DNA from: Niallia sp. Man26
GTDB lineage: Bacteria > Bacillota > Bacilli > Bacillales > Cytobacillaceae
NCBI RefSeq assembly: GCF_022049065.2
Contig: NZ_CP095743.1
Span: forward strand, 3,673,001-3,737,000
Direction of reading: 5' to 3'
DNA length: 64,000 bases
In this document: piece after piece, positions 24,446-42,163 of the stretch
Layout of the letters: each line of letters starts with the position of its first letter
How positions within the stretch are numbered: position 1 is the first letter of the stretch
Notes under the pieces: model-generated
The model's input: the letters and a program-made list of their open reading frames with translations, nothing else
Databases searched by the model: none
Told to the model about the DNA's origin: nothing
Program-made: the position numbers and the translations under genes

Positions 24446-24630
24446 TATGAACTCCTCTTATTAAAGTTTATCGGTTTTATTAGATTTCCTGAATCGAATG
24501 ATGTTTATACAAGGCGAAATGGTGAACATCTTTTTTACTGTTTTTCCCAAAATAGACATGAATACTTTTCAAGTTGGCTATAATAAGTCATAATAGATTC
24601 AGCAACCCCAAATTAAGGAAGTGGTTTTGT
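24446..24630 (+). promoter_or_regulatory. Leader of the small ORF, with a -10-like box
   Basis: This 185-nt gap is AT-rich. TATAAT lies at 24579-24584 without a convincing -35. The AAGGAAGTGG ribosome site of the small downstream ORF ends at 24624. Nothing else is recognised. Confidence 0.35.
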
Positions 24631-24792
24631 TTGCAGCTGGTAAAAAGGGAGCTTGCGCGCTTATTAGACGATCACAGCAGATGCCCTGATTTTCTTATAA
24701 AAAGGGAAATCGAAATAGACATACAATTATTAAAGGAAGCCATTTCCATCTTCGAAGAACAGCAGAACAGCTTCCACCAGAAAGAAACCTGA
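24631..24792 (+). CDS. Small hypothetical protein (54 aa, TTG start)
   Basis: The frame is open from 24574, but AAGGAAGTGG lies 6 nt before a TTG at 24631, so the likely product is 54 residues: LQLVKRELARLLDD, a RCPDF turn, then a charged helix EIEIDIQLLKEAISIFEEQQ. It has no signal or membrane segment and looks like a helical hairpin. I do not recognise the family. It ends 11 nt before a c-di-GMP riboswitch on the same strand. Confidence 0.55.
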   Translation: MQLVKRELARLLDDHSRCPDFLIKREIEIDIQLLKEAISIFEEQQNSFHQKET

Positions 24793-24802
24793 ATATATGA
24801 AT

Positions 24803-24890
24803 ATCTTGCAAAGGCAAATTTTACGAAAGTAAAAGACGCAAAGCCACGGACCTAAGATAGACAACCTATTATGGCCGCCGGGCTGCCAGG
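24803..24890 (+). ncRNA. Class I cyclic di-GMP riboswitch (GEMM-I)
   Basis: The sequence carries the GEMM-I core in order: GGCAAA, a stem TTTTAC/GTAAAA closed by a GAAA tetraloop (24820-24833), GACGCAAAGCC, the tetraloop receptor parts CCTAAG and TATGG around an ATAG/CTAT stem, and GGGCTGCC at the 3' end. These invariant segments are the ligand-binding and tetraloop-receptor elements of the class. No plus-strand ORF follows within the next 16 kb, so the usual target gene is absent. Confidence 0.9.
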
Positions 24891-24921
24891 ATCCTTTATA
24901 GTTCCATTAATACCCCAATAG

Positions 24922-24953
24922 AAAAAAGCATAACTTCTAATGAAATTATGCTT
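24922..24953 (-). terminator. Terminator ending the immunity-gene array
   Basis: On the minus strand AAGCATAA (24953-24946) pairs with TTATGCTT (24933-24926), followed by a T-run. It ends minus-strand transcription about 30 nt short of the riboswitch on the other strand. Confidence 0.78.
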
Positions 24954-24998: not shown

Positions 24999-25353
24999 TT
25001 ACTCTAATATTATATCTTTGCGATTCTCTGTTAAGATAACCTCTTCTAGAGGAAACCATTTCTCATAATAATATTTGTCTGTCCTATCAAACTGATATTT
25101 CATAGCTAATTTAGCATCACCTGTGCCGAGAAATACCTTTCCGTCTACTATGCGTGGACTGACATTAAATGTTTTTCCCTTATATTCTGCTAGATCATTT
25201 TGGTTTATTCTTTTCTTATAAATCCCTCTACCATATGTATCAACAAAATCACTGTCTATCTTAGAAATATCCTCAATGCATATTATTATCCATATCTTTT
25301 GTAACTTTATATTCTTCACCTTTATAGATTCCATAATAACCTTTTTTTATCAC
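24999..25353 (-). pseudogene. Frameshifted immunity-like gene (GTGDAK family, copy A)
   Basis: A real start is visible at GTG 25353, 7 nt after GGAGGAA. It encodes IKKGYYGIYKGEEYKVTKDM and then meets a TGA at 25275-25273. The protein continues in another frame with EDISKIDSDFVDTYGRG and ends with VFLGTGDAKLAMKYQF and KYYYEKWFPLEEVIL. One frameshift near 25265-25280 joins the two parts into a protein of about 118 residues. The longest intact frame (111 aa from 25334) therefore has a false N-terminus. I infer an immunity role from its place behind the LXG toxin. Confidence 0.72.
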
Positions 25354-25401
25354 AACTGTATTCCTCCATTAATATATTATCGGAATTAAACATTTATGGT
25401 A

Positions 25402-25650
25402 TTAGAGCTCGGTTATCTCTCTTATTAAATATATCTCATCCAGGGTCACTCTCTTTTGATAGTAGAATGTATCCATTCTTTCAAGAGCGTTTGCAAATAC
25501 AAACTTTGCATCTCCTGTACCAAAGCAGACTTCATTTAAAATTAAGCCAGAAAAATATTGAGATCTTCTTCAGAGTTTCCAGCACTTACTCCTTCTAACT
25601 GCAGTATTCTGCTTATATTTTGTTCAAATAGATATAGCAAAAAAACTTTT
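25402..25650 (-). pseudogene. Decayed paralogue of the preceding gene (copy B)
   Basis: Conceptual translation of the minus strand gives LYLFEQNISRILQLEGVSAG and NSEEDLNIF, then, after a shift of frame near 25550, SGLILNEVCFGTGDAKFVF, ERMDTFYYQKRVTLDEIYLI and a stop at 25404. The GTGDAK motif and the YYxK-LDE/LEE ending match copy A, so this is a diverged second member. It has no start codon or ribosome site and is broken at both its 5' end and middle. Confidence 0.65.
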
Positions 25651-25672
25651 TAAAGGTAATAAATAGTGCTCT

Positions 25673-26141
25673 TTAATAATCAATTGGTATACTGGAACTC
25701 ACTGTATTTCCTTTACTGCCAACATATGTTACAGACGATTGCGCTTCGTCTAGCTGTTTTAGCTTAACAGCATTATTTTCACGTATAAGCATATCGCTAG
25801 GTATTCCAGCCAAAGACATCGCAATCCATAATTTATTTTCATTAACAGTTGGCCTGCCGATATTAAATTGTGGATGCTCTTTCATAAACGGACTGATATA
25901 CCTCGCAAAATAGTAGTCCAACAATCTATTAAGTAAGAAGTATTTTTGCCGCATCTGTTTCTGATTTGAATTGTTTTTTCTGTTTTAGATAAGGCTCATT
26001 CTGCCTCTCTACAATAACTAAATCAAACTCCCATATTTCCCTTTTCTTTTCTAACACATAGTAATTCTTATATGGAGGAACAATTTCCTTTATATAGTTT
26101 CCCTTAACCTCTGTTATTTTCCTATACCTGACTAATATCAT
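25673..26141 (-). pseudogene. Frameshifted immunity-like gene of about 155 codons
   Basis: ATG 26141 follows GAGGTGAGCGATATTA and reads MILVRYRKITEVKGNYIKE to QFKSETDAAKILLT and a stop at 25929. A second frame overlapping this end reads NRLLDYYFARYISPFMKEH to SSIPIDY. The two join naturally as DAAKILL-NRLLDYYFARY. Around the joint ACTT occurs twice (ATACTTCTTACTTAAT), so a 4-nt duplication may be the cause. Family not recognised; position suggests an orphan immunity or helper protein of an LXG cassette. Confidence 0.72.
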
Positions 26142-26198
26142 TAATATCGCTCACCTCGTTTGTTATTCCTCAAGTTCTAAAAGGCAACATATAAATAA

Positions 26199-26240
26199 AA
26201 AGCATTATTTTAAAGGAAACACCTTTTAAAATAATGCTTT
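26199..26240 (-). terminator. Terminator after the toxin-immunity unit
   Basis: A 16-bp stem pairs 26199-26214 with 26225-26240 (arms AAAGCATTATTTTAAA and complement). On the minus strand it is followed by TTATTTAT. It separates the toxin/immunity operon from the decayed genes further on. Confidence 0.82.
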
Positions 26241-26247
26241 AGCATTG

Positions 26248-26447
26248 TTACTTTTTAAAGTAAATTCTCTTAAGATTTTCTATATCTTTAGCAGCAGTAG
26301 TACCTTCCTTTCGAGCTAAAGGAAGGCTATTTTTATTAACTTGCTTTAAATAGAAACTATAATTGTACATGACAACAAAAGCTGGCGATTTTTAACTATC
26401 GATATCTTTTTACCATTTGTAATATGATAGTAAATCTCATAATTCTC
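26248..26447 (-). pseudogene. Gene remnant directly behind the immunity gene
   Basis: One frame encodes ENYEIYYHITNGKKISIVKN and a second continues AFVVMYNYSFYLKQVNKNSL and PLARKEGTTAAKDIENLKRI to a stop at 26250. A GGAGAATT-ATG is present at the 5' end but in yet another frame, so at least two shifts separate the parts. No family recognised. It lies between the intact immunity candidate and the terminator. Confidence 0.5.
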
Positions 26448-26455
26448 CTAATTCC

Positions 26456-26929
26456 TTAAAATAGTTCGTTATCTATAAACTCCTTTATTTGAGTACTAGG
26501 AATTATCTTTCTTTCTACAGGTAAATTGTTGAATTCCATAATTGGCTCTAAAATTTCTACTAATGCATCAATGTCTTCTATTCTAACGTTTTTCGTAAAC
26601 ACAAATTGCTCCTGTTTCTCGAACCCTTTATTATGATAATCCTCGGAATCACTGCTCACTAATTTAATTTTTCCATCATTTATCACTAATTCCCCTATTG
26701 CAAAAGTATCATATTCTTTTCCTTTATATATCACCTTATATTTTCGTTCAAATATTAACTCAATCTCATCAATGTCTACTTCTTTAATAAATATATTATC
26801 ATGAACATTGCCACCTAAATCCACTAATACCTTAAATCCACTTTCCTTTTTATTACTCTTTAATCTATACGTATTATTACGTATATTTAGAGGATAATTT
26901 GCACTTTTATATCTAGCGTATCTCGCCAT
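26456..26929 (-). CDS. Candidate immunity protein of the LXG toxin
   Basis: A 157-residue soluble protein, start ATG 26929 after TTAGGGTGGTGTTACATAT. It is charged and beta-rich, with an RYARYKSANYPLNI N-terminus, a VDLGGNVHDNIFI segment and an acidic middle, and no signal peptide or membrane helix. I do not recognise the family. Its stop-to-start position, 15 nt behind the LXG toxin, and its low GC like the toxin C-terminus are what one expects of the cognate immunity gene. That role is inference. Confidence 0.65.
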   Translation of the reverse strand: MARYARYKSANYPLNIRNNTYRLKSNKKESGFKVLVDLGGNVHDNIFIKEVDIDEIELIFERKYKVIYKGKEYDTFAIGELVINDGKIKLVSSDSEDYHNKGFEKQEQFVFTKNVRIEDIDALVEILEPIMEFNNLPVERKIIPSTQIKEFIDNELF

Positions 26930-41392: not shown

Positions 41393-42163
41393 ATGGATGT
41401 GTTTAACATGTTTACAAATGAGCAGATTCAATCTTTTTCCGATCTTGAATATGAGCTTTACAATTACATTATGAAGAATTCTCGGGAAGTAACCTATATG
41501 AGAATACGAGAACTCGCAAATGAAACGCATGTCTCCACAACCACCATACTTCGTTTTTGCAAAAAGCTTGGTTTTGACGGCTTTACTGAATTCAAGGTGC
41601 AGCTGAAAAATCATCTTGCAGAGGAAGAAACATATCGGCTTAACAATACATATACAACTGTTTCCGATTTCGTAGAAAGAACGCTTTCAGCAAACTATGA
41701 ATCTAAAATTAAAGAAATAGCCGAAGTTATCGCTAAAGCAAAAATCGTTATTTTTATCGGTGCAGGAACCTCTGGCGTCATTGCAGAATATGGTGCAAGG
41801 TTCTTCTCCGGTCTCAAGAAATTTTCTCTTCATATTAAAGATCCGTATTTCCCAATTTACAGTCACTACATAACTGACAGTGTCACAATCGTGCTGTCTG
41901 TGTCAGGCGAATCTAAGTCAACAATGGAAAAGCTGGACCGCCTTAAGCAGGACGGCAGCATCATTGTAAGTTTGACAAATCATTCTGACAGCTCACTGGC
42001 CAAAATGTCTGATTACAACCTGGCGTATTATATAACGACAGAATATTTGGGAAATGTCAATTTAACGACTCAAATACCAGTCATGTTTTTAATTGAACGG
42101 TTAGGAAAAGAGACTTTCGACTATATGCAATCCTCCTTAATCAACAGGGATGAAGGGAAATAG
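41393..42163 (+). CDS. RpiR/MurR family sugar-phosphate regulator
   Basis: A 256-residue regulator. The N-terminal helix-turn-helix (about 20-75; ELANETHVSTTTILRFCKKL) is followed by a SIS sugar-isomerase domain (about 100-240; VIFIGAGTSGVIAEYGARF). RpiR proteins sense phosphosugars. It is divergent from the GH4 phospho-beta-glucosidase, so it probably controls that gene in response to a phosphorylated disaccharide. GGAG lies 12 nt before the ATG, rather far; an ATG five codons in is an alternative. Confidence 0.88.
   Translation: MDVFNMFTNEQIQSFSDLEYELYNYIMKNSREVTYMRIRELANETHVSTTTILRFCKKLGFDGFTEFKVQLKNHLAEEETYRLNNTYTTVSDFVERTLSANYESKIKEIAEVIAKAKIVIFIGAGTSGVIAEYGARFFSGLKKFSLHIKDPYFPIYSHYITDSVTIVLSVSGESKSTMEKLDRLKQDGSIIVSLTNHSDSSLAKMSDYNLAYYITTEYLGNVNLTTQIPVMFLIERLGKETFDYMQSSLINRDEGK

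Follow-up and report, generated by a model that had tools for sequence, protein, structure and literature searches.

A cyclic di-GMP-I riboswitch aptamer behind a small conserved gene in Niallia and a second genus as a candidate 3'-UTR riboswitch

Here, we describe a class I riboswitch aptamer for cyclic di-GMP (c-di-GMP-I or GEMM-I, Rfam family RF01051) that stands directly behind a small open reading frame (ORF) of Niallia sp. Man26. The window, i.e., the whole stretch of DNA that was analysed, comprises 64,000 nucleotides (nt) of contig NZ_CP095743.1 (positions 3,673,001 to 3,737,000 of the forward strand). A covariance-model scan (cmscan) matched the aptamer to RF01051 over its full length (model positions 1-87 of 87) with 79.4 bits (E 5.7e-14), well above the gathering score of 35, and thereby confirmed the GEMM-I element of the original prediction. 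It is the sole match at gathering score within the window, and two positions of its alignment to the model are marked as non-standard pairing. Binding of c-di-GMP by the window aptamer is predicted solely from this full-length match. The 54-codon ORF proposed to lie upstream was found as well; its stop codon is 10 nt away from the aptamer. The claim that no plus-strand gene follows for more than 16 kb also holds as far as ORFs show. In the list of window ORFs of at least 60 amino acids (aa), the first large one on the plus strand past the aptamer encodes 256 aa at 41393-42163, and the intervening ones do not exceed 136 aa. Both the aptamer and its unusual position are established.

The pair of ORF and aptamer occurs in nine genomes, representing five of 13 Niallia species and four of five genomes of g10, our label for another genus of the same family. 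It occupies one locus in the host (G000), Niallia taxi (G002), G005, and G006, a second locus elsewhere in the genome of Niallia sp. NCCP-28 (G003), where the ORF copy is more distant, and a third locus in the g10 genomes G021, G213, G214, and G215. No ORF match came from the fifth g10 genome, which is 66% complete. One script, which placed the aptamer start 10 nt ahead of GGCAAA, found the ORF stop 5-13 nt upstream of the aptamer in all nine genomes. Of ten ORF-family matches with E < 1e-16, six of them sequences of the query alignment, nine have the aptamer; the exception is a second ORF copy carried by G003.

Comparison of the locus among these relatives, as the original prediction had suggested, revealed an intact aptamer in every genome with the pair. 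Rfam scores span 56.3-81.1 bits, with 81.1, 75.4, and 67.8 bits in G002, G005, and G006, 56.3 bits in G003, and 66.3-77.2 bits in the four g10 genomes. These scores are independent of the models R1, R2, and A1, with which the pair members rank first partly by construction because they helped to build them (six of the nine aptamers in R1, all nine in R2, and six of the nine ORFs in A1). Across 12 within-genus pairs of four Niallia and four g10 genomes (G003 was not compared), identity was 90-100% in the aptamer core, 79-93% in the ORF, and 49-97% in the 60 nt behind the aptamer. The aptamer surpassed both the ORF and this 3' flank in all 12 pairs, narrowly so in G002/G005 (74/76 vs 58/60), and is better conserved than any other part of the locus.

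Known RF01051 riboswitches act on the gene behind them; here the conserved partner stands ahead of the aptamer, with no gene behind it. We recounted, for each aptamer, the longest plus-strand ORF that has a word resembling a ribosome-binding site and starts at most 450 nt behind the aptamer, with the expectation taken from mononucleotide shuffles. An ORF of at least 60 aa was found behind none of the nine paired aptamers (0.6 expected) and behind 56 of 71 other aptamers (1.6 expected); at a threshold of at least 35 aa, the counts were two of nine (2.1 expected) and 68 of 71 (11.4 expected). For the three others that remained under 35 aa (L013, L150, and L182) the start was judged by eye, and all 71 were seen to precede a gene on inspection. 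These 71 comprise 12 aptamers of the host and 40 plus 22 from relatives, minus three places counted twice, and are the top of score-ranked lists, not a random sample. An ORF ending at most 60 nt upstream was present at none of the 40 and at two of the 22 (L241 and L249) in a scripted count covering the relatives' aptamers; the upstream ORF at L249 is probably there by chance. At L241 (G102:C168:23798-23889), genes flank the c-di-GMP-I aptamer on both sides: a 64-aa ORF ends 44 nt upstream, and an ORF that looks CheY-like begins 48 nt downstream. No conserved gene beyond chance ORFs thus follows the nine aptamers, none of which has the usual position in the 5' leader of a controlled gene. By sequence and structure the window aptamer belongs to RF01051, by position it falls outside the usual definition, and the constant partner of the aptamer is the ORF in front of it.

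No family in Pfam or NCBIfam matches the 53-aa ORF of the window, and a PDB match at E 0.34 was dismissed as meaningless. Its orthologues in three Niallia genomes (G002, G005, and G006) are 77-81% identical. The ORF is evidently under purifying selection, with a nonsynonymous rate (dN) of 0.067-0.088, a synonymous rate (dS) of 0.40-0.54, and a ratio of 0.12-0.19 between the window and these orthologues (45 codons). The corresponding g10 ORF is 102-104 aa long and consists of an N-terminal Sda domain (PF08970), present in all four proteins (6.9e-8 to 2.8e-5, every one above Pfam's cut-off), followed by a domain homologous to the window ORF. The window ORF has no Sda domain and is homologous only to this C-terminal extension. 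About 97 nt upstream of the start codon, all four g10 genes carry TTTTGTCGAAAAATA, which we take to resemble a Spo0A box. Sda is a checkpoint inhibitor of sporulation kinases and, as stated in PMC11925247, blocks phosphotransfer from KinA to the phosphorelay. Because its family is fused to this kinase inhibitor in g10, the small ORF probably encodes a small regulator of the sporulation or biofilm decision.

The locus thus combines a complete aptamer and a selected ORF in an order that is kept in two genera and at three loci, with only chance ORFs downstream. We favour, with moderate confidence, the explanation that the aptamer functions as a 3' element of the small gene, i.e., a riboswitch in the 3' untranslated region (UTR) that would make 3'-end formation or stability of the mRNA dependent on c-di-GMP. 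A role as 3' element of the upstream ORF was among the options of the original prediction and gains support from the genome comparison. We regard this ORF as the partner because the convergent neighbour changes between loci while the ORF stays. The locus would form one short transcription unit of a promoter, the small ORF, and the complete aptamer as 3' UTR; the 10-nt spacing and the co-conservation point to a shared transcript. Binding of c-di-GMP would close the aptamer, and its state, folded or unfolded, could set the end of the message by deciding between termination and read-through into the convergent genes. Alternatively, the aptamer state might decide whether RNases gain access to the 3' end. 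The level of the small protein would then track c-di-GMP, the sign of this effect being presumptive. Cleavage of riboswitches by RNases was described for other bacteria in PMC3649979, and ligand-dependent decay may for this reason be as likely as termination.

A possible means for such a response is an extension of the closing stem of the aptamer by AUCUU and AGGAU. The two strands, which were placed by hand, form four to five of five pairs in eight of the nine sequences (G003 was excluded), with U-A, U-G, and C-G at one position, and the extension is part of the minimum-energy fold of the four g10 sequences. In g10, AGGA can alternatively pair with a downstream UCCU ahead of a U run (AGGA-N4-UCCU-C-UUUUU), which would have the layout of a switch but with a weak terminator.

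Some riboswitches, first seen in Listeria, terminate transcripts that come from an upstream gene, but these keep downstream genes of their own, as described in PMC7821165. The present aptamer would resemble them in joining the 3' UTR of a preceding gene, to judge from spacing and co-conservation. It differs in that the Listeria-type elements described there have a downstream gene of their own and acquire the 3'-UTR role from a missing terminator, while here no gene follows and the upstream ORF is conserved. Neither a bacterial 3'-UTR c-di-GMP riboswitch nor a c-di-GMP-I aptamer with a conserved preceding ORF was found in the literature by title and beginning of the abstract, a weak negative as coverage was partial.

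Several observations weigh against the aptamer being a regulatory 3' element. Neither the minimum-energy folds of four Niallia sequences and G003 nor the consensus fold of all nine contain the closing-stem extension. The 4-bp hairpin that precedes a U run in all four g10 genomes is weak (three of them were folded, with -2.5 to -3.5 kcal/mol), Niallia shows no clear counterpart of this hairpin and U run, and no expression platform of textbook strength lies behind the aptamer. Promoter-like sites in the region do not exceed shuffle level (10 vs 8.4). The nine genomes represent about three independent lineages at most, and selection on the ORF is less strict when the window is left out of the within-genus comparison (ratio 0.21-0.40 in three Niallia and three g10 pairs; G214 was not compared). 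The second ORF copy of G003 has no aptamer, and none was found near the more distant ORF-family members scanned (0/49 loci including this copy, 0/24, and 0/40, with some places counted twice). G003 additionally has a short plus-strand ORF, apparently with a broken frame, whose start lies about 103 nt past the aptamer and is preceded by a good ribosome-binding site. Finally, the excess of C over G behind the aptamer is not specific, being equalled by 30 of 76 control 3' regions. G content there is 6% behind the nine aptamers vs 19.8% behind 52 ordinary ones; Rho-type control from this C-rich, G-poor stretch was dropped as an idea, given these controls and the ribosome-binding sites in the flanks of ordinary aptamers.

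It is unlikely that the aptamer instead controls a non-coding or antisense transcript into the convergent genes, which include toxin/immunity and type VII secretion system (T7SS) genes in the window, with the ORF merely providing the promoter. Such a transcript would agree with the missing plus-strand gene behind the aptamer and with the convergent ORF of at least 80 codons that lies within 1.2 kb in eight of nine genomes. A precedent exists in C. difficile, where the c-di-GMP-I riboswitches cdi1_4 and cdi1_5 precede the antisense antitoxin RNAs RCd11 and RCd12, according to PMC7699646. The shared feature is a c-di-GMP-I aptamer whose product is not a protein-coding gene; the C. difficile elements, however, are described there as having their own promoter and a downstream RNA, whereas the aptamer studied here follows an ORF directly and its convergent gene is not conserved. 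Convergent T7SS genes are opposite the aptamer in G002, G005, and G006; in the window, LXG-toxin and immunity-type genes separate the aptamer from them. Among the minus-strand neighbours in the window are an LXG/PT-TG gene and an FtsK/SpoIIIE (EssC-like) gene. In the four g10 genomes the convergent gene is presumably aminotransferase-like, as we judge from its sequence, and the stretch read contains no T7SS genes. No T7SS genes were recognised near the aptamer of G003, which has no convergent ORF of at least 80 codons within 1.2 kb. The hairpin of the minus-strand genes, a stem followed by TTTTCTATTG, also weighs against this reading, although its U run serves the minus strand. Its presence past the aptamer had been noted before; the distance is about 36 nt and not 30 nt. 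Regulation of the minus-strand array by an antisense or convergent RNA, as also considered in the original prediction, is weakened by a convergent gene that differs between loci and an upstream ORF that is constant.

The small ORF could, with still lower probability, be a leader peptide, so that a ribosome ending 10 nt upstream covers the start of the aptamer and translation and c-di-GMP together set read-through. The distance from stop codon to stem strand is 5-14 nt in all nine genomes, which falls within the footprint of a ribosome, and because of this distance a terminating ribosome would also be able to interfere with the aptamer stem. Yet conservation of the ORF is at the protein level, in g10 it forms part of a larger protein with an Sda domain, and there is no downstream gene to regulate.

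Least probable is a decaying relic whose target behind the aptamer was lost: the missing plus-strand gene, the 71 other aptamers that precede one, and L241, which shows that an aptamer can stand between two genes, would fit such a loss, but the aptamer is intact in all nine genomes, which span two genera and three loci, and within-genus identity among the eight genomes compared is 90-100%. The specific proposal that rearrangement of the toxin island removed the target is rejected because the arrangement is conserved at three loci, with the small ORF upstream and no conserved gene behind the aptamer in relatives without the arrangement of the window (three Niallia with T7SS genes facing the aptamer, one Niallia with the pair elsewhere, and four g10 genomes without T7SS genes in the stretch read).

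Returning to the aptamer as a 3' element of the small gene, we tentatively propose, with less confidence than in that role itself, a dedicated bacterial 3'-UTR riboswitch without a downstream gene that regulates a preceding sporulation or biofilm regulator via ligand-dependent 3'-end formation or decay in two genera. Bacterial riboswitches are usually described as 5' elements acting on what follows. As the only constant partner of the aptamer is upstream, regulation from the 3' end would become directly testable, and c-di-GMP would be tied to a small Sda-related regulator of sporulation or biofilm formation. Apparent orphan aptamers deserve comparison with their upstream neighbour before they are labelled relics.

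Features of the ORF-aptamer locus in the window, and host leaders that precede SinI-type ORFs
Feature	Position	Strand	Support
Likely ribosome-binding site of the small ORF, AAGGAAGTGG	24615..24624	+	Read from sequence; identical in four Niallia genomes
Small ORF, 53 aa, TTG start, TGA stop	24631..24792	+	Orthologues; dN/dS; homology to C-terminal part of g10 protein
c-di-GMP-I (GEMM-I) riboswitch aptamer, 3' of the ORF	24803..24890	+	RF01051, 79.4 bits; identity within genera
Possible closing-stem extension, 5' strand (AUCUU)	24803..24807	+	4-5 of 5 pairs in eight sequences
Possible closing-stem extension, 3' strand (AGGAU)	24888..24892	+	Folds and manual pairing
Intrinsic-terminator-like hairpin of the convergent minus-strand genes	24926..24953	-	Kept in four Niallia genomes
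Host leaders before SinI	G000:C1:3378543 (L004), G000:C1:520127 (L008), G000:C2:913738 (L009)		

Further links connect the ORF family and its hosts to c-di-GMP. In a third genus, a 45-aa relative of the ORF (G029, locus L181; 25.1 bits vs at best 12.5 in 500 shuffles) has a 5' c-di-GMP-I leader of 83.6 bits with a terminator-like hairpin, as read by eye. Of nine paralogue loci read in Niallia, five, which all belong to one branch (L035, L036, L034, L037, and L020), have a gene of 369-380 aa next on the same strand, and in the host, the only genome for which a profile match was obtained, the gene after the paralogue is a GGDEF gene. A GGDEF motif search found one at one of 63 family loci, on the opposite strand, but did not pick up the one in the host. 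In total, the genome of the host contains 23 GGDEF matches and 13 c-di-GMP-I riboswitches; three of these riboswitches are leaders directly followed by ORFs for SinI-type anti-repressors (Pfam SinI, 9e-11 to 9.4e-14), and a Spo0E-like ORF (PF09388, 5.3e-7) lies behind the c-di-GMP-I leader L250 (G115:C1:3419821-3419916). Because ordinary leaders precede SinI, Spo0E-like, and further small proteins, c-di-GMP-I switches in this group appear often to govern tiny developmental regulators, a set into which the window ORF would fit.

On the minus strand of the window, short ORFs behind the LXG gene (24999-26929) are perhaps immunity-type genes or remnants; three of them (24999-25334, 25673-25954, and 26456-26929) have no Pfam match. 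Among the 5' c-di-GMP-I leaders, a recurrent target are proteins of about 61-70 aa with an N-terminal FYPT motif (G000:C1:1630752 (L006) and most of L233-L245).
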